Source: Chloroflexota bacterium (GTDB taxonomy: Bacteria; Chloroflexota; Anaerolineae; UBA1429). Taken from it: 64,000 nt of DNA. Below the pieces are notes generated by a model. It made no database searches. It saw only the letters and a list, made by a program, of their open reading frames with translations, and had not been told where the DNA came from. A program made the translations under genes and the position numbers. The stretch lies in the NCBI GenBank assembly GCA_012719135.1, contig JAAYAW010000016.1, positions 1 to 64,000 on the forward strand, given 5' to 3'. Of the stretch, positions 27,988 to 36,868 are shown in pieces (position 1 is the first letter of the stretch; each line of letters starts with the position of its first letter).

Positions 27988-29865
27988 ATGGCGCCAAGGA
28001 GCAGCGTGCCGATAGACTCCGAGATCCTGGAAAGCCTTCTGAACCGCGTTCAAAAGCCCGGCCGATATGTGGGCGGTGAATGGAATGCCATCACCAAGGA
28101 CTGGGCGAATGTAGAGGTCAGTATCGCCCTCGCCTATCCAGACGTCTATGAGGTTGGCATGTCCAACCTGGGGTTGGCGATCCTATACGACATCGTCAAT
28201 CGCCAGCAGGCTATGGTTGCGGAACGGGTGTACGCACCCTGGGTGGACATGGAAGGCGCGCTGCGCCAGGCAGGACTCCCGCTGTATTCGCTCGAGACTC
28301 GGCGACATCTAGTCGACTTCGATGTTCTGGGGTTCACCCTTCAGACTGAGCTCACCTACACCAACGTGCTCAACATGCTGGATCTCGCGCTAATCCCTCT
28401 GCGGTCCGCGGAGCGGCCTGAGACGATGCCCCTTGTCATTGCGGGCGGGAGCTGCGCATACAACCCCGAACCAATGGCCAGGTTCATCGACCTGTTTGCG
28501 CTCGGCGAGGGGGAGGAGTTGGTGGTAGACCTGCTGGCGGCGGTATCGACTTGGAAGCGCACCGGGCGCCGCGAAGGTCGCCATGGGCTTCTCAAGTCCA
28601 TGGCACAAATACCGGGCGTCTATGTGCCATCGCTCTATACCGTGAGCTACGCCTCTACCGGAGAGATTGGCCGGATCTCGCCAGAGCAGGGTGCACCGTC
28701 ACGAGTTCGGAAGCGAATCATGGCCACGCTGGCCCCCACGCCTCGCGCGCCGCTCCTGCCGAACATCAGTGCCATCCACGATCGCGCTGCGGTGGAGATA
28801 CAGCGTGGCTGCAGCCGAGGTTGCCGGTTCTGCCAGGCCGGCATGATCTACAGGCCCATCCGCGAGCGCCCGGTGGGAGAGGTTCTCGAGGATGTGGACG
28901 CGATCATCGCAAACACGGGCTACGACGAGGTCGGCCTGGTATCACTGAGCAGCAGCGATCACTCCGGGATCAGCGAGATCGTGCGCAGCCTGGTGGAGAG
29001 GTACGCGGAAGACCGGCTCGCCATCTCATTGCCATCGCTGAGGCTAGACTCATTTTCGGTCGAGATCGCCCGGCTGATCAAACAACAGCGCAAAACCGGC
29101 TTTACCTTTGCGCCGGAGGCGGGCAGCCAGCGGCTACGCGACGTCATCAACAAGTGCGTGACGGAGCAGGACCTCCTCCGCACGGCGGAGGCGGCATTCG
29201 AGAGCGGCTGGGACCGGATCAAGCTCTACTTTATGCTCGGCCTGCCTACAGAGACAGACGAAGACGCTCAGGAGATTGCGCGGCTGATTCGCGAGGTCCG
29301 TGACATGGGGCGACGCGTGCGCGGTAAGCGCGTGGAAATCAGCGCATCGGTTGCGACCTTTGTTCCCAAACCACACACGCCCTTCCAGTGGCAGCCCCTG
29401 GCCCAGAGGGAAGAGGTGGAGGCCCGGCAACAGCTCATCGTGAAGGCGGTGCAGAGCGCGAGAATCCACGTGAGCTATTCGGACTGGGAGTCCACCTGGC
29501 TCGAGGCGCTGCTGAGTCGGGGCGACCGGCGGACTGGAGAGGTGATCGAGCGGGCCTGGAGAAAAGGCGCTCGTTTCGACGCATGGAGCGAGTGTTTCCG
29601 CCCGCCGGTCTGGTACGCTGCCGTCGAGGACGCGGGCCTGGACGCAGGCTGGTATCTCCACCGCGAGCGTGGGCAGCATGAAGTGCTGCCCTGGCAGGCC
29701 ATCGACGTCGGTGTATCCGACGCGTTCCTGTGGAACGAGTATGAGCGCGCGCTGGCCGGCTCCCTCTCACCGGACTGTCGCGAACACTGCTACGACTGCG
29801 GCATCCTGGTGGCCTTTGGCGCAGAGCGTGACTCCTTCGAGAGCGCGATCTGGGGGTGCCCGTGA
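27988..29865 (+). CDS. TIGR03960-family B12-binding-domain radical SAM protein
   Basis: N-terminal NVEVSIALAYPDVYEVGMSNLGLAILYDIVN; radical SAM EIQRGCSRGCRFCQAGMIYRPIRER; FTFAPEAGSQRLRDVINK. Confidence 0.93.
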   Translation: MAPRSSVPIDSEILESLLNRVQKPGRYVGGEWNAITKDWANVEVSIALAYPDVYEVGMSNLGLAILYDIVNRQQAMVAERVYAPWVDMEGALRQAGLPLYSLETRRHLVDFDVLGFTLQTELTYTNVLNMLDLALIPLRSAERPETMPLVIAGGSCAYNPEPMARFIDLFALGEGEELVVDLLAAVSTWKRTGRREGRHGLLKSMAQIPGVYVPSLYTVSYASTGEIGRISPEQGAPSRVRKRIMATLAPTPRAPLLPNISAIHDRAAVEIQRGCSRGCRFCQAGMIYRPIRERPVGEVLEDVDAIIANTGYDEVGLVSLSSSDHSGISEIVRSLVERYAEDRLAISLPSLRLDSFSVEIARLIKQQRKTGFTFAPEAGSQRLRDVINKCVTEQDLLRTAEAAFESGWDRIKLYFMLGLPTETDEDAQEIARLIREVRDMGRRVRGKRVEISASVATFVPKPHTPFQWQPLAQREEVEARQQLIVKAVQSARIHVSYSDWESTWLEALLSRGDRRTGEVIERAWRKGARFDAWSECFRPPVWYAAVEDAGLDAGWYLHRERGQHEVLPWQAIDVGVSDAFLWNEYERALAGSLSPDCREHCYDCGILVAFGAERDSFESAIWGCP

Positions 29866-30572
29866 CGGCAACGGCTGATACAGCACTGCGTGTTCGAGTT
29901 CACCATGCCATCGGAGAGCCGCTGTGCTACACCTCCGTGCTGGACATGGGCAGGCACTGGGAGCGGCTCCTTCGACGGGCCCGCATCCCTCTGGCCTACT
30001 CACAGGGCTACCATCCTCACCCGCGCATTCTGTTCGCCGCCCCCCTGCCGGTAGGCTACCGCGCGACCGACGAACTGCTGGATATCGTGCTGGACCGGCC
30101 GCACAGCCCGGCCGGAGTGCGTGCCCTGCTTCTTGCACAGAGCCCGCGCGGGCTCGAGATCAATGAGGTAGAGGCCGTCGCCCCGGATGCGCCCGTCCTC
30201 CAGTCCCTCATCAGCGATGCCCGCTACACGATCGAGCTTTGGAGCCCGGCATCGGAGGAGGACATCCGCGGGGCACTGGCCGCCTTTGAGAGCCAGACCG
30301 AAGTTGTGCGCACGCGTGAGCGCAAGGGCCGGCTTCAGGAATACAACCTCCGGGAGTTGTTCTCCTCGCTCGCGTATGCCCATCCCGAGCACCTACCGCT
30401 GGAGACCGAGCCCCGCGTGCACCAGCATGTTCTGGAGGCGATCGCGCGGTGCGGCTCCCGTGGATCGGGCCGGCCAGAGGAGTTGATCGACGCCCTGGGC
30501 GTTCCGTATCGCTCCTATCGCATCACCCGCACGGGCCTCATCTGGTCATCGGACAAGGAGGGTGCCGCATGA
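29856..30572 (+). CDS. TIGR03936-family radical SAM-associated protein (DUF2344)
   Basis: RVRVHHAIGEPLCYTSVLDMGRHWERLLRRARIPLAYSQGYHPHPRILFAAPLPVGYRATDELLDI. Confidence 0.93.
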   Translation: MPVTATADTALRVRVHHAIGEPLCYTSVLDMGRHWERLLRRARIPLAYSQGYHPHPRILFAAPLPVGYRATDELLDIVLDRPHSPAGVRALLLAQSPRGLEINEVEAVAPDAPVLQSLISDARYTIELWSPASEEDIRGALAAFESQTEVVRTRERKGRLQEYNLRELFSSLAYAHPEHLPLETEPRVHQHVLEAIARCGSRGSGRPEELIDALGVPYRSYRITRTGLIWSSDKEGAA

Positions 30573-31147
30573 AGCAACTCTGGTCGCCCTGGCGGATCGA
30601 CTACATTCGCGGAGACAAGCCCTCCGGCTGTGTGTTCTGCGGCGCCCCCCTTCTGGAGGGCTCGGAACAGAACCTCGTGCTCTTTCGCGGCGAGCATGCT
30701 TACGTGATGATGAACCGCTACCCGTACACGAACGGCCACCTAATGGTCATCCCGTACGCGCATGTGGCGATGCTCACTGACCTTCCTTCGTGCACGCAGA
30801 TAGAGATGCTCCAGGAAGTAAACATGTGCATTGAGGTCCTGCGGGAGGTGATGAGTCCCCAAGGCTACAATGTCGGCCTCAACCTGGGTGCATCCGCCGG
30901 CGCAGGGATTCGAGATCACCTCCACTTTCATGTCGTGCCGCGCTGGATCGGGGATACGAACTTCATGGCAGTCATCGGCGAGACGGCCGTGATCGTCCAG
31001 GATCTCATCCAATGCTTTGGCCAGCTCCGCAAGGCCTTTGACGCGCGCTGCATCTTTGGCGAGGACGAGGAATTCCGTCCCCGGCGGGGAGACCCCACCG
31101 GTTCCGCCAGCGAAGGAGGAGGGACCAATTCCGGCCCGCAGAGTTGA
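30569..31147 (+). CDS. HIT family protein (AP4A phosphorylase-like)
   Basis: MKQLWSPWRIDYI, CVFC, MNRYPYTNGHLMVIPYAHVAML, GIRDHLHFHVVPRW HIT motif. Confidence 0.95.
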   Translation: MKQLWSPWRIDYIRGDKPSGCVFCGAPLLEGSEQNLVLFRGEHAYVMMNRYPYTNGHLMVIPYAHVAMLTDLPSCTQIEMLQEVNMCIEVLREVMSPQGYNVGLNLGASAGAGIRDHLHFHVVPRWIGDTNFMAVIGETAVIVQDLIQCFGQLRKAFDARCIFGEDEEFRPRRGDPTGSASEGGGTNSGPQS

Positions 31148-31171
31148 CTCGGCGCACGCGGCGCCTATAAT
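31144..31171 (+). promoter_or_regulatory. Sigma70-type promoter upstream of the cobalamin riboswitch
   Basis: TTGACT (31144-31149), 16 nt, TATAAT (31166-31171). Confidence 0.75.
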
Positions 31172-31196
31172 GGCAGAGTCGGTTAGGAAGCTGAAC

Positions 31197-31314
31197 GATC
31201 GAGGTGCCCTGAAGCCCGGAAGCCAGGGGCACAATGGGGGAAGCCGGTTCGAGTCCGGCGCTGTCCCGCAACTGTAATGGCCTGAGGGCCAGAGCCAGGT
31301 TACCCGCCTCGATC
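31197..31314 (+). promoter_or_regulatory. Cobalamin (B12) riboswitch
   Basis: P1 GATCGAGG/CCTCGATC; GGTGCCC...GGGCAC; GGGGGAAGCCGGTTCGAGTCCGGCGCTGTCCCGCAACTGTAA; GCCAGAGCCAGGTTACCCGCCT match the conserved cobalamin riboswitch core. Confidence 0.96.
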
Positions 31315-31394
31315 AACGACCTGCAAACCTTCGCGGAAAGGGTGACTGTCGCCATGCCAGTTCGTCTAGTTCGTTTTACATCGCGTCCGAACCT

Positions 31395-31436
31395 GGAGGG
31401 AAAGGCCTCGCATTTGGCCAGCCCCTCCTTTTCTTT
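31395..31436 (+). terminator. Candidate intrinsic terminator serving as riboswitch expression platform
   Basis: GGAGGGAAAGGCCTCGCATTTGGCCAGCCCCTCC hairpin followed directly by TTTTCTTT, 80 nt after the aptamer and before the likely start codon. Confidence 0.65.
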
Positions 31437-31464
31437 GCCGGAGGCCGAGCCGGACCGGGTTCTG

Positions 31465-33753
31465 ATGCCTCCCCCCGCTGCACGCAATCCCCGCCCATTG
31501 CCGGCGCGGCTCAGCAGGCTGCCCGTCTGCCTATCGATCGCCCTGTTGCTGCTTTGCTTGGCCGCGTGGGCGCCGTTAATACGCGCCCAGGCTGATGGGC
31601 CGCATGCCGACACAATCGCGGCCACTGTTGACTATCTCAGACAGCAGGTCACGCCTGAGGGAGGGCTCGATGCCTTTGGCAGCGGAGCGGACCCCTCCAC
31701 GACGGCGAGGGCCATCATCGCGCTCGGCACCGCTGGGATCGATCCGGTGGTTCTGTCGCATCCAGAGTCAGGCCTAGCGCCCCTCGACTACCTGGTGAGC
31801 ACACTCGTCACGTACACTCACGAAAGCCCCTTTGAGGATAGTGAGCACCTGTTCCCGGGGAACGCCGGCCTGGCGCTGGCTGCCCTGGCGAGCGCCGACC
31901 TGAGACCCGCTCCATCGACAGGAGTGGATCTGGTAGAGCAACTGGAGGCGACGCTGCGCCCGACAGGCGCCTACAGCACAACTGCAGCCTCGGGATTCAC
32001 CACTGGGGAAGCCCTGGCCTCCAACCAGGCTTGGGCGATGCTCGGGCTCGCCATGGCCGGTCGCCCCGTGCCCGCCACAGCCGCCAGCTACCTCATCGGC
32101 CTGCAGGAACCATCCGGAGGCTGGCAGGATAGCGATCCCGACACCACGGGCTTGGCCGTCGTCGCCCTCATGTCCACGGGCCATGTCGCACCCACCGATC
32201 CGGCGATCTCCCGTGCGCGCGACATGCTCTGGAGCACGCAGTTGTCGGGCGGAGGATGGCGTCCGGCCTGGGATACTGAGCCGATCAACGTGGATAGCAC
32301 GGCCTGGGCCATCCAGGCGATGCTCGCCTGCGGCCATCAACTGCCGCTCGCCTCGCACCGAACCACTCTGGCCGCGGACGAGGCGCTGAGCGCGGCCCAG
32401 CTCCCCAATGGCAGCCTGGGAGGCGAGTTCGCGAGCGCCTACAGCACCGCAGAGGGAATCCTAGGCCTATCGGGGGTACCCTTCTACCTAACGCCGGCGC
32501 TGAGAGTAGAACGCGGTCTGGCCTGGCTCGCCGAGCAGGTGAGCCCAGATCTTGCCGTGAGCGCGGCCGTGGACATCGCCTCAGCCCTGGCGTTCTCGGG
32601 CTATGATCCGCGCTCGCTCGATAAATCAGGGGTCGGATTGATGCACGTGATCGAGGCGCAGGCGCAGGATTATGCCGCGGCCTCGGTGGACCAGGCCGGG
32701 AAGGTCGCGGTTCTGCTCGGGCAACTGGAGCCTGCGATGGCGAGCATGAACGCGGCCGTCGCAGCCGCCATAGACGCCGCATGGGATCCCGCCGTGCAAG
32801 CCTTCGGAACCATCACGAACACCTACCATCAGGCCTATGCGATCCTGGGCCTGCACGCCCTGGGCGAGCCGGTGCCGGACGGTGCAGCGACCACGCTGCT
32901 GAGCCTTCAACAGGCCGATGGGGGCTGGAAGTACGACCTGGCCGAGGCCGAATGGAACACCACCACACCAGACAACACCGGCCTGGCTATCCAGGCGCTG
33001 ATCGCCGCCGGGCTCGACTCGGCCCACCCGGCAATCCAGGGTGCCCTCGGCTATCTGCGATCGACCCAGGACAGTGAGGGCGGGTGGTCGAACGCCAACG
33101 CAACCGCCATGGCGCTTCAGGGGCTTCGATCGGCCGGCGAAGAGCCTGGCCTCTGGCGCACACAAGCAGGATATGCCCCCGTCTTCGCCATTGCCCGTTA
33201 CGGCAAGGCCGACGGACCCGCAGTCTGGATGTGGGACTCTCCCTGGGGCGGACCCGAGGACAGCCTGCTCGCGACGGTGCAGTACATACCGGCTCTCGAC
33301 CAGAGAACACTTCTCTCGCCCCCCGTCCCCCTTGCCCCCTACAACCCTATGCCCCGTGGAGCCGATCCCGATATCCTTCTTCCGAGTACGGTGCGCTTCT
33401 GGGGTCGCGATGGCACCCTGCAAGTTCGCCTTGGAGCTGTGGGGGATTCCGATGGAGATGCCTCAGCAACCATAGCCTGGCTGCGCCCGGACATGAGCAC
33501 GTGGAGCGAAACCGTGGTGCTAGCAAGGGAAGCGGACGTCTTTGCCGCCGATATACCCGTCGATCGCGGTTGGTGCATGGTCCGCATCACGTTGCTGGAT
33601 CCTGATGGAGTCCGGAGCGGAGAGAACACCGGCCAGACGGTGACGCTTACCAGCCGCGTGCCCGTCGAGGCGTGGCTTGGTGGATCACCGGTACCCATTC
33701 CAGCACGCTGGGTACATCGGGCATGGCATCGTCGGGCCGTGGAGGCCCCGTAG
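31465..33753 (+). CDS. Secreted prenyltransferase/squalene-cyclase-repeat (alpha/alpha-barrel) protein, transcobalamin/intrinsic-factor alpha-domain-like
   Basis: Signal peptide LSIALLLLCLAAWAPLIRAQA; repeats LQEPSGGWQDSDPDTTGLAVVAL, TQLSGGGWRPAWD, LQQADGGWKYDL...TGLAIQALIAAG, SEGGWSNANATAMALQGL; downstream of a B12 riboswitch. Confidence 0.85.
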   Translation: MPPPAARNPRPLPARLSRLPVCLSIALLLLCLAAWAPLIRAQADGPHADTIAATVDYLRQQVTPEGGLDAFGSGADPSTTARAIIALGTAGIDPVVLSHPESGLAPLDYLVSTLVTYTHESPFEDSEHLFPGNAGLALAALASADLRPAPSTGVDLVEQLEATLRPTGAYSTTAASGFTTGEALASNQAWAMLGLAMAGRPVPATAASYLIGLQEPSGGWQDSDPDTTGLAVVALMSTGHVAPTDPAISRARDMLWSTQLSGGGWRPAWDTEPINVDSTAWAIQAMLACGHQLPLASHRTTLAADEALSAAQLPNGSLGGEFASAYSTAEGILGLSGVPFYLTPALRVERGLAWLAEQVSPDLAVSAAVDIASALAFSGYDPRSLDKSGVGLMHVIEAQAQDYAAASVDQAGKVAVLLGQLEPAMASMNAAVAAAIDAAWDPAVQAFGTITNTYHQAYAILGLHALGEPVPDGAATTLLSLQQADGGWKYDLAEAEWNTTTPDNTGLAIQALIAAGLDSAHPAIQGALGYLRSTQDSEGGWSNANATAMALQGLRSAGEEPGLWRTQAGYAPVFAIARYGKADGPAVWMWDSPWGGPEDSLLATVQYIPALDQRTLLSPPVPLAPYNPMPRGADPDILLPSTVRFWGRDGTLQVRLGAVGDSDGDASATIAWLRPDMSTWSETVVLAREADVFAADIPVDRGWCMVRITLLDPDGVRSGENTGQTVTLTSRVPVEAWLGGSPVPIPARWVHRAWHRRAVEAP

Positions 33754-33755
33754 AC

Positions 33756-34811
33756 ATGGGCAACATCCGACGCTTGCGCTGTGCCCTATGGCTCGTCGTC
33801 TTGGCCAGCACGATTGTCTTGGCGCTGTTTTCGCCGTCGCAGGCGGCGGCGCAGGCTGGTACGCGGGTAGGCCTCGTCATCGATACCGGAACAGGCGATC
33901 CGATCACGATGATCGTGACCGTCGCTGAGGCCAACCCTACCGGGTACAGGATCCTGCAGGCGTCCGATCTGGATATCGTCGCACAGAGCTCCGGCCTTGG
34001 CGTGGCCATCTGTTCCATAGAGGGGATAGGTTGCCCGGCGTCGCGGTGCTTTTGCGAGTCGCCCGCGCACAGCTGGACGTACTGGCACCTCGTCGACGGC
34101 GTTTGGGTCTACTCGCCCGTTGGCGCCAGCACATACAGGGTCTCGAACGGATCGGTCGAGGCCTGGCGTTGGGGCCCCGGAGATCCGCCGGCTCTGATCA
34201 CCTTTGATGAGATCGCGGCCGCGGCCAACGGCGAGTTGAGCTCTGGAGAGGCTGGGGCCCAGCAGGCGTACCCCGGCCCTGAACCAGCAACACCGGATCC
34301 GGACGGCTCGTTCGATCCCTATCCAGCTCCGGATGCAACCGCGCCTGCTTGGGAGGCTTATCCAGGGCCTGATGAGCCTGCCACTGCCGAGACGCCAGCG
34401 TCCGCAAGCACGCCGGCCATTCTCGCCCCAATAGCCACTATGGAAACACCATCGGGCCCTGCTCCCACTCAAGAGGAGATCCCGCCGACGTTCACACCGA
34501 TCTCTCTGGGGGCAGCCACACCCGAACGCGAGTTACTCCAGGTAGAGACAAGAGCCACCGGCGAGCCATCGACAGGCCTCAACGAGGACCAGGTGGCGGC
34601 CCCCTCTACGCCCGACCGCGTGGCTGCTCTCATCTCGACCGCGGTCGCGCGCCATCTCGATGCTGCGGCGGCCGGCGACGAGCCCGCCGAGCACAGCACC
34701 TCCCGGTCATATGTGGGCTTTGGTGTTCTGCTGTTGCTGCTGCTTGGCCTTGTTGGTTATGTATACCTATTGCGACGACAACGCCGCGCCGATCGGGCCC
34801 GGCACGGGTAG
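33756..34811 (+). CDS. Secreted, C-terminally membrane-anchored DUF4430-like (transcobalamin beta-domain-like) protein
   Basis: Signal peptide; GTRVGLVIDTGTGDPITMIVTVAEANPTGYRILQAS...LGVAICSIEGIG...SWTYWHLVDGVWVYSPVGASTYRVSNGSVEAWRWG; Pro/Ala/Thr-rich linker; C-terminal TM GFGVLLLLLLGLVGYVYLLRRQRR. Confidence 0.8.
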   Translation: MGNIRRLRCALWLVVLASTIVLALFSPSQAAAQAGTRVGLVIDTGTGDPITMIVTVAEANPTGYRILQASDLDIVAQSSGLGVAICSIEGIGCPASRCFCESPAHSWTYWHLVDGVWVYSPVGASTYRVSNGSVEAWRWGPGDPPALITFDEIAAAANGELSSGEAGAQQAYPGPEPATPDPDGSFDPYPAPDATAPAWEAYPGPDEPATAETPASASTPAILAPIATMETPSGPAPTQEEIPPTFTPISLGAATPERELLQVETRATGEPSTGLNEDQVAAPSTPDRVAALISTAVARHLDAAAAGDEPAEHSTSRSYVGFGVLLLLLLGLVGYVYLLRRQRRADRARHG

Positions 34812-34940: not shown

Positions 34941-35843
34941 ATGACGATTCAGCAGACGCTCTCGACGATCTGTTCGGTTCCAAGCGCCCCTGCCCTGCGC
35001 GATGCGGTGGAGCAGGCCTGGGCCGTGCGCAAGAGCCACCATCCTGATACGATCTTGCTGGTCCGGCCCTATGCTACGGCTCCCATCAGCGTGACCGGGC
35101 CAGCGTGCGCGCTCGACTGTGCTCATTGCGGAGGGCATTACCTCCAGCACATGGAGAGCCTTACGGCGCCGAGCTCGCGCTCCAGTCGCAGCTATCTCAT
35201 TTCCGGGGGTTGCGACAGCCGCGGCGTGGTGCCGTTAGCGGCGCACCGAGAGGCTATCGCCGAGCTTGCCAGGCATCATCGGCTTGTCCTTCATGTTGGC
35301 CTGATGCCCCCACTGGAGCTGGCCAGCATGGACCTACCTGTGGCCGCCGTCTCACTCGACATTGTGGGAGATCGCGAGACCGCCCTAGAGGTCTATGGGC
35401 TCGACGTCCCACTGGCGACCTACATCGCGCAGTTCGAGGCCCTCTCTGAGATCGCTCCTGTCGTCCCACACATCACCATCGGGCTCCACGCTGGGCAGAT
35501 CCGCGGCGAGTACGAGGTAATTCGAGCGCTCCTGCCACTGGCCCCCGAACGGGTCGTCTTCCTGGTGCTGATACCGACTGCCGGCACGCGCTATGCCAGT
35601 TGTCTGCCTCCATCGCCAGAACAGGTGGCGTCGGTGCTCGCGACGGCTCGATGCCTGCTTCCAGATACGCGCCTATACTTGGGGTGCATGCGCCCGCCCG
35701 GCCGTTACCGGCAGACTCTGGATGTCCTCGCCATAGCCGCGGGCGTGAACGCGATCGTGAACCCGACCCGGGCGGCCGAACGGGCGGTTGAAGAGGCCGG
35801 TTTGAGTACCACTCTGGGGGACGAGTGTTGCGCGCTCTACTAG
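34941..35843 (+). CDS. Radical SAM protein, candidate subunit of two-component lipoyl synthase (LipS1/LipS2-like)
   Basis: CALDCAHC (CX3CX2C) cluster motif, biotin-synthase-like size (about 300 aa), paired with a second radical SAM gene and directly upstream of gcvTHP. Confidence 0.78.
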   Translation: MTIQQTLSTICSVPSAPALRDAVEQAWAVRKSHHPDTILLVRPYATAPISVTGPACALDCAHCGGHYLQHMESLTAPSSRSSRSYLISGGCDSRGVVPLAAHREAIAELARHHRLVLHVGLMPPLELASMDLPVAAVSLDIVGDRETALEVYGLDVPLATYIAQFEALSEIAPVVPHITIGLHAGQIRGEYEVIRALLPLAPERVVFLVLIPTAGTRYASCLPPSPEQVASVLATARCLLPDTRLYLGCMRPPGRYRQTLDVLAIAAGVNAIVNPTRAAERAVEEAGLSTTLGDECCALY

Positions 35844-36842
35844 AGCCTTCAGAACTGACGTGGAGGCTATCCAGCGGGACGGCCTCGGTGCTCGGCCTGA
35901 CCCGCGCCCCCACGGCGGTCCCGCCGACCACGGCCTATGTCATGCTGGGAGATCGCTGTGCGAACGACTGTGCCTTTTGCGCCCAGGCTCGCTCCAGCCG
36001 CGCCAGCGAGGATGCGCTCTCCCGCGTGATCTGGCCTCCTATCACGGGCGAGCAGGCGGTTGCCGCAGTGACGGACGGATTCGCGCGCCACACGATCCGG
36101 CGCGTGTGCCTGCAGATCACGGGAGGCCCGGAGGCACACCTTTCGGCGCTCTCCGCCGTCCAGGCGATCAGCTCAGTATCACCAGTGCCCGTCTGCGTAT
36201 CCATCGCAGCCTCAACGCAGGGAGAGATCGCCCAGCTGCTTTCGGCTGGCGCCGAACGCGTAACGCTGGCCTTGGATGCCGTCACACCGACCCTGTTCGA
36301 GCATGTGAAGAAACGCTCCTGGGCCGCTACCTGGGCCTGCCTGCAGGAGGCGGCCAATCGCTATCCGAGCCATATCGGCACGCATCTCATCGCTGGCCTA
36401 GGCGAGACGGAAGAGCAACTTGTCACCCTCGCCAGCGAGCTCTTTCGCCTGCAGGTGTCGGTTGGGCTCTTTGCCTTTACGCCCGTTCGGGGCACCAGGA
36501 TGGAGTTGAACGCGCCTCCGGCGCTGGATCGATACCGCCGTGTGCAGGCCGCCCTGTGGCTGCTGCGAGAGGGCCTTGTCCAGCGAGAGGAGCTGAGATT
36601 TGACGATTGCGGCACCTTGCGGAGCCTCTCGATGGAGAGAAACGCGCTGGCCGAACTCCTACGGAGCGGCGAAGCGTTTCGAACTCGGGGATGCCCGGAC
36701 TGCAATAGACCCTACTACAACGAGCGGCCGAGCGGTGCGCATTACAACTATCCCCGACCCTTGACTCAGGCGGAGGCGGACAGGGAGGTATCCTCTCTGC
36801 TCGAGATGCTGGACTTTGCCACAACCGGATCCGAAGGAGCCT

Positions 36843-36868
<26 letters not shown>
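35825..36868 (+). CDS. Radical SAM protein, candidate partner subunit of two-component lipoyl synthase (LipS1/LipS2-like)
   Basis: GDRCANDCAFCAQARSS (CX3CX2C, BioB-like CAQ), HLIAGLGETEEQLV, GCPDCNRPYYNERPSGAHYNYPRPL; coupled to the preceding gene. Confidence 0.78.

Follow-up and report, generated by a model that had tools for sequence, protein, structure and literature searches.

Two exported Chloroflexota proteins behind a cobalamin riboswitch, with folds resembling the transcobalamin alpha and beta domains: a probable corrinoid capture system

The riboswitch locus

Two adjacent genes, here termed gene 1 and gene 2, are found downstream of a cobalamin riboswitch in an Anaerolineae genome (Chloroflexota bacterium, lineage UBA1429; assembly GCA_012719135.1). 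The DNA analysed, referred to as the window, consists of the first 64,000 nucleotides of contig JAAYAW010000016.1. The genes encode exported proteins whose folds resemble those of the two domains of the animal vitamin B12 (cobalamin) carriers transcobalamin and intrinsic factor. We consider it probable, at roughly 0.85, that they constitute a riboswitch-controlled surface system that catches vitamin B12 or other corrinoids and feeds an energy-coupling factor (ECF) importer. Positions of all features are listed in Table 1.

An earlier note, made from the DNA letters without database searches, placed a promoter, a complete cobalamin riboswitch and two signal-peptide genes at this locus, and the promoter scan, the RF00174 match and the open reading frames (ORFs) bear this out. 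The score of the aptamer passes the RF00174 gathering cut-off of 31.5 bits, and the 2.64 Mb genome, rated 99% complete, has no second cobalamin riboswitch. Upstream of the probable start of gene 1 is a terminator-like hairpin followed by a T-run, a possible OFF expression platform of the riboswitch judging from its sequence. The stem is recovered in a predicted fold that is no better than those of shuffled sequences, and a terminator scan did not report the hairpin.

Table 1. Features of the riboswitch locus (window positions) and of the ECF module on another contig, C52, of the same genome
Feature	Position	Strand	Basis
Sigma-70-type promoter, TTGACT-16-TATAAT	31144..31171	+	11/12 consensus positions; 0 in 50 shuffles
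Complete cobalamin riboswitch aptamer, RF00174	31185..31325	+	Covariance model 1-189 full length; 63.9 bits, E 1.8e-13
Terminator-like hairpin and T-run, GGAGGG...CCCTCC-TTTTCTTT	31395..31436	+	3' of riboswitch; read by eye from sequence
Gene 1, exported double alpha/alpha-barrel protein	31465..33753	+	SQHop_cyclase Pfam models above cut-off
Gene 1, barrel 1	31576..32496	+	Family barrel hidden Markov model (HMM), E 2e-57
Gene 1, barrel 2	32488..33324	+	Family barrel HMM, E 7e-60
Gene 2, exported membrane-anchored transcobalamin-like beta-domain protein, 351 aa	33756..34811	+	ORF from ATG 33756
Gene 2, transcobalamin-like beta-grasp domain (S1 S2 H, beta-hairpin insert, Cys-rich loop, S3 S4 S5)	33852..34265	+	AlphaFold2 and Foldseek
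Gene 2, Cys-rich loop C-x6-C-x4-C-x-C, family-conserved	34011..34055	+	Alignments A1 and A2
Gene 2, C-terminal transmembrane (TM) helix, then RRQRR	34707..34772	+	Read from sequence
ECF module: T, double ATPase, S	C52:19343-22835		Orthologous to riboswitch-linked ECF sets of relatives

The double-barrel protein

Gene 1 encodes a signal peptide, two tandem barrels and a C-terminal region. The longest frame begins at 31234 and a further ATG is found at 31354; the start is probably the ATG at 31465, which gives the signal peptide LSIALLLLCLAAWAPLIRAQA. Counted from the ATG at 31354, the barrels comprise residues 75-381 and 379-657. The family HMM groups both with the barrels of relatives, and their best Pfam matches are squalene-cyclase-type toroids, i.e. 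squalene-hopene-cyclase repeats. The reading of gene 1 as a squalene-cyclase-type alpha/alpha barrel thus stands, with the amendment that there are two barrels and not one.

The beta-domain protein

Gene 2 begins two bases after gene 1. Its product starts with a signal peptide and a compact domain of roughly 120 residues, continues through a Pro-rich linker and ends in one TM helix and an RRQRR tail; the position of the helix is hydrophobic in most homologues. The string SWTYWHLVDGVWVYSPVGASTYRVSNGSVEAWRWG, quoted earlier in support of a DUF4430-like module, is present in the protein.

An AlphaFold2 model of the compact domain, built from alignment A1 of 53 homologues, has a mean predicted local distance difference test (pLDDT) value of 93.2. 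When the model was compared with the PDB by Foldseek, the best 18 matches, all with probability 1.00, were transcobalamins, haptocorrin, intrinsic factor and 3u7z (8ixt, 5np4, 5no0, 3u7z and 2pmv are among the top matches), and the next was an unrelated protein at probability 0.44. The template modelling score, normalized on target length, is 0.73-0.74 with the isolated human transcobalamin beta domain and 0.82-0.83 with 3u7z. We take 3u7z to be a bacterial DUF4430-type protein; its PDB title says putative metal-binding protein. A structure search had been set beforehand as the way to refute the assignment, and gene 2 falls among the transcobalamin, haptocorrin, intrinsic factor and DUF4430 folds, not outside them.

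The model contains the beta-grasp core S1-S2-H-S3-S4-S5, and a beta hairpin (strands 42-47 and 50-56) is inserted directly after the helix (31-37). Because a hairpin after the helix is the feature that defines the transcobalamin-like clade (PMC1796856), the domain fits that clade. Between the hairpin and strand 3 is the Cys-rich loop (C54, C61, C66 and C68 of the model), and this is the main difference.

The sequence profiles do not recover this relationship. The Pfam DUF4430 profile (PF14478) has no match in gene 2, in the 53 homologues or in the genome at any threshold tried, and neither gene 2 nor its profile gave a meaningful match when the PDB was searched by sequence. When the gene 2 family was compared, profile against profile, with four DUF4430 domains from this phylum, the two aligned in full register, with an E value of 9e-5 and a probability of only 59%. 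DUF4430-like is therefore correct as a description of structure, and DUF4430 was rejected as a sequence-family name for gene 2, since the profile finds nothing. The model points to a transcobalamin-like domain that is divergent, has an additional Cys-rich loop and can be recognized by structure but not by sequence profile.

Loci and fusions in related genomes

Homologues of gene 2 are present in 35 of 60 relatives, and a fused barrel/beta protein used as query had matches in 130 of 298 genomes belonging to the class. Scanning named genomes with a 12-row subset of the 53-row alignment gave 80 loci, nearly all in Chloroflexota (Anaerolineae, Caldilineales, Ardenticatenia, Thermoflexales, Herpetosiphon and Chloroflexales), plus one in Acidimicrobiales.

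The barrel adjoins the beta domain in 68 of these 80 loci, and a cobalamin riboswitch precedes 39 of the 41 barrel loci tested. The distance to the called gene start is at most about 350 bases in 38 of the 39; in the remaining one the riboswitch is 2.1 kb upstream. In addition, 23 of the 80 loci encode barrel and beta domain as one polypeptide, and the fusions occur in both domain orders. The suggestion that gene 1 and gene 2 are split halves of an intrinsic factor/transcobalamin-like protein is supported by these natural fusions and by the recurrence of the neighbouring genes behind riboswitches across Chloroflexota. A beta-domain/barrel fusion of 404 aa from one relative (G029) is modelled as one confident unit (pLDDT 94.9, predicted template modelling score 0.94), and in the PDB it matches toroid cyclases and transcobalamins.

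Loci carry one to three tandem barrels and one or two beta-domain genes, in no constant ratio, as seen when window 31576-33324 is set beside L048, L051 and L053. At L031, L034, L037, L054, L055 and L057 no barrel gene was found near the beta-domain gene, and the stretch searched has no cobalamin riboswitch either; some of these loci are at contig ends.

A candidate transport partner

ECF transporter genes, named by matches to PF12822, PF02361 and TIGR04520, were counted in the 41 of the 80 loci that have at least 4.5 kb of downstream DNA. They are found in 33 of the 41, and all three parts (S, T and the double ATPase) in 25. Three of the 80 loci encode the beta domain and an ECF S component in one protein (L030:9625-11817, L143:6842-9238 and L170:6854-9061). 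These fusions are direct evidence for the transport partner.

The earlier note had found no transporter in the window, and indeed searches of this contig for CbiQ and BtuC genes gave nothing. It considered the partner unknown; a candidate can now be named. The genome has three CbiQ-type T genes, and one of the three ECF sets, on contig C52, is orthologous to the riboswitch-linked sets of relatives, with 42-61% identity for S and mostly 47-54% for the ATPase. The S components of the two other sets have no match among the riboswitch-linked sets. Because the barrel/beta loci of relatives carry ECF genes and beta/S fusions, the module on C52 is the predicted partner of gene 1 and gene 2.

No BtuC above cut-off and no CbiC were found in the genome, and NrdJ, looked for as a B12-dependent enzyme, was also not found. 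There are several B12-binding domains, including one in a corrinoid methyltransferase protein. Since CbiC and any BtuC above cut-off are missing and yet B12-binding domains are present, the organism probably must import corrinoids, i.e. its gene content suggests B12 scavenging.

A proposed mechanism and its alternatives

The exported barrels of gene 1 would be the counterpart of the alpha domain of transcobalamin and intrinsic factor, and gene 2 that of the beta domain, tethered to the membrane by one TM helix through a flexible linker. The bound cobalamin would be sandwiched between barrel and beta domain. The loaded, membrane-held beta domain may then hand the vitamin to the S component of the C52 module, which would import it, and high cytoplasmic B12 would cause the riboswitch to shut off both genes. 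In animal carriers, cobalamin is required for the two domains to associate, and binding is sequential, with the beta domain first (PMC11107200). Because cobalamin brings these domains together, a pair of separate proteins closing around the vitamin would be a natural arrangement. Transfer to the S component would be a natural next step, since the beta domain is membrane-anchored and, in some relatives, part of the S component.

Perhaps the clamp is also reversible, with cobalamin acting as the glue between a free barrel and the tethered beta domain, and docking of the beta domain on the S component opening the clamp and handing over the vitamin. This extension is tentative, and we rate its chances slightly below even. 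Animal carriers need to be degraded to release B12 (PMC11107200). A reversible clamp, if true, would make this an ECF importer assisted by external carrier subunits.

Several points weigh against the proposal of a B12-capturing pair that feeds an importer. The window genome has two barrels and one beta domain, which is not a 1:1 ratio. In this genome the ECF genes are unlinked to the riboswitch, so that the partnership here rests on orthology. The inference of auxotrophy depends on a single marker, CbiC, in a draft genome. Lastly, because the beta domain comes first in the G029 fusion and last in transcobalamin, a sequential alignment can cover one domain only; the template modelling scores of about 0.44 to transcobalamin over about 315 columns are therefore uninformative on the clamp, and its geometry cannot be read from the search.

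The alternative that survives best concerns the ligand, which might be a corrinoid precursor, another cobamide or cobalt, and not cobalamin itself. Cobalamin riboswitches also govern the uptake of cobalt and of precursors, and the T component matches CbiQ. Cobinamide is also taken by known B12 carriers (PMC5997447). The S component, however, matches PF12822 and ECF vitamin families, with CbiM seen below cut-off only, the structural neighbours of the beta domain bind cobalamin, and a genome with no CbiC could hardly use cobalt alone to make B12. We regard this alternative as unlikely.

A second possibility is that the two proteins bind B12 independently of each other, for example to store it at the surface or to compete with other microbes, with neither a clamp nor delivery to an ECF importer. 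This would suit the separation of ECF genes from the riboswitch in the window genome and in most loci of its family, as well as the beta-domain loci that have no nearby barrel gene, though several of these lie at contig ends. The barrel/beta fusions in both orders and the beta/S-component fusions argue against it, as does the fact that cobalamin itself unites the two domains in animal carriers (PMC11107200), and we consider it quite improbable.

That the barrel protein is a terpene or squalene cyclase, or some other enzyme, with an incidental link to the riboswitch can be largely dismissed: the barrel finds its best matches, in Pfam and PDB alike, among squalene-hopene cyclases, which share the alpha/alpha toroid, but an enzymatic role is unlikely because none of 66 barrels, the window protein included, keeps the catalytic DxDD motif (the commonest reading at the motif resembling it is D-x-N-S-T-A), and the barrel protein is exported and adjoins the beta domain and riboswitch almost everywhere.

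Relation to known systems

With animal transcobalamin, intrinsic factor and haptocorrin, the pair shares an alpha/alpha barrel and a beta-grasp domain with a beta-hairpin insert, and the beta domain of these carriers matches gene 2 best in structure. The window system differs in having two separate genes, two barrels in gene 1 and a membrane-tethered beta domain, which in addition has the Cys-rich loop and no Pfam DUF4430 match. Animal carriers use endocytosis, whereas the link of the bacterial system is with an ECF importer.

Toroid and transcobalamin-like (SLBB/DUF4430) proteins with CbiO/CbiQ operons were reported from low-GC Gram-positives, planctomycetes and some archaea by Burroughs et al. 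(2007), who predicted a role in B12 scavenging (PMC1796856). Features common to both are an exported toroid and a transcobalamin-type beta-grasp domain, the toroid on either side, a second paralogous beta-domain gene, CbiO/CbiQ operons and hosts without B12 synthesis genes. The Chloroflexota branch differs in that it is missed by the DUF4430 profile, is split in two genes, almost always has a cobalamin riboswitch in front and shows beta/S-component fusions. It is these properties that are new; the general kind of system was already predicted in 2007. At L074 and L076, in small-genome members of the same phylum, canonical DUF4430 proteins are encoded directly upstream of CbiQ-like genes, and these represent the form already known, in the same phylum as the new one. 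Our search, which covered the open literature and few subscription papers, found no experimental work on bacterial transcobalamin-like proteins, only the 2007 prediction, and no paper on SCO2322.

The NCBIfam families SCO2321 (NF053823) and SCO2322 (NF040672) are matched by barrel and beta-domain proteins of relatives, all well below the curated cut-offs. For SCO2322_fam, gene 2 scores 20 bits and relatives up to 38, against a cut-off of 85 bits; for SCO2321_fam, gene 1 has no match and relatives score 72-96 bits, against 300. The ECF-CbrT cobalamin transporter is likewise an ECF-type B12 importer made of T, ATPases and S, but its S component itself binds the substrate, and no external carrier has been described for it (PMC5997447).

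Neighbouring genes

Next after gene 2 is a pair of lipoyl synthase genes, LipS1 and LipS2 (34941-36868), both over the NCBIfam cut-offs, followed by what appear from their translations to be glycine-cleavage genes. None of these looks related to the B12 system. A similar radical S-adenosylmethionine (SAM) gene follows both genes in a relative of the same genus (L022:8543-9508). On the other side (27988-31147) are genes for a radical SAM protein and its TIGR03936/DUF2344 partner, and then a HIT-family ATP adenylyltransferase-like gene.

Significance

The system links the animal B12 carriers to a widespread putative bacterial uptake system, in which the carrier domains are encoded by separate genes behind a B12 riboswitch and the importer can be named. 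Herpetosiphon aurantiacus DSM 785, a named strain whose genome is complete, has a version at locus L165. Families listed in databases only as SCO2321 and SCO2322 thereby acquire a likely function. Two questions are made testable: the origin of the two-domain design of transcobalamin, and how B12 may be released without destruction of its carrier.

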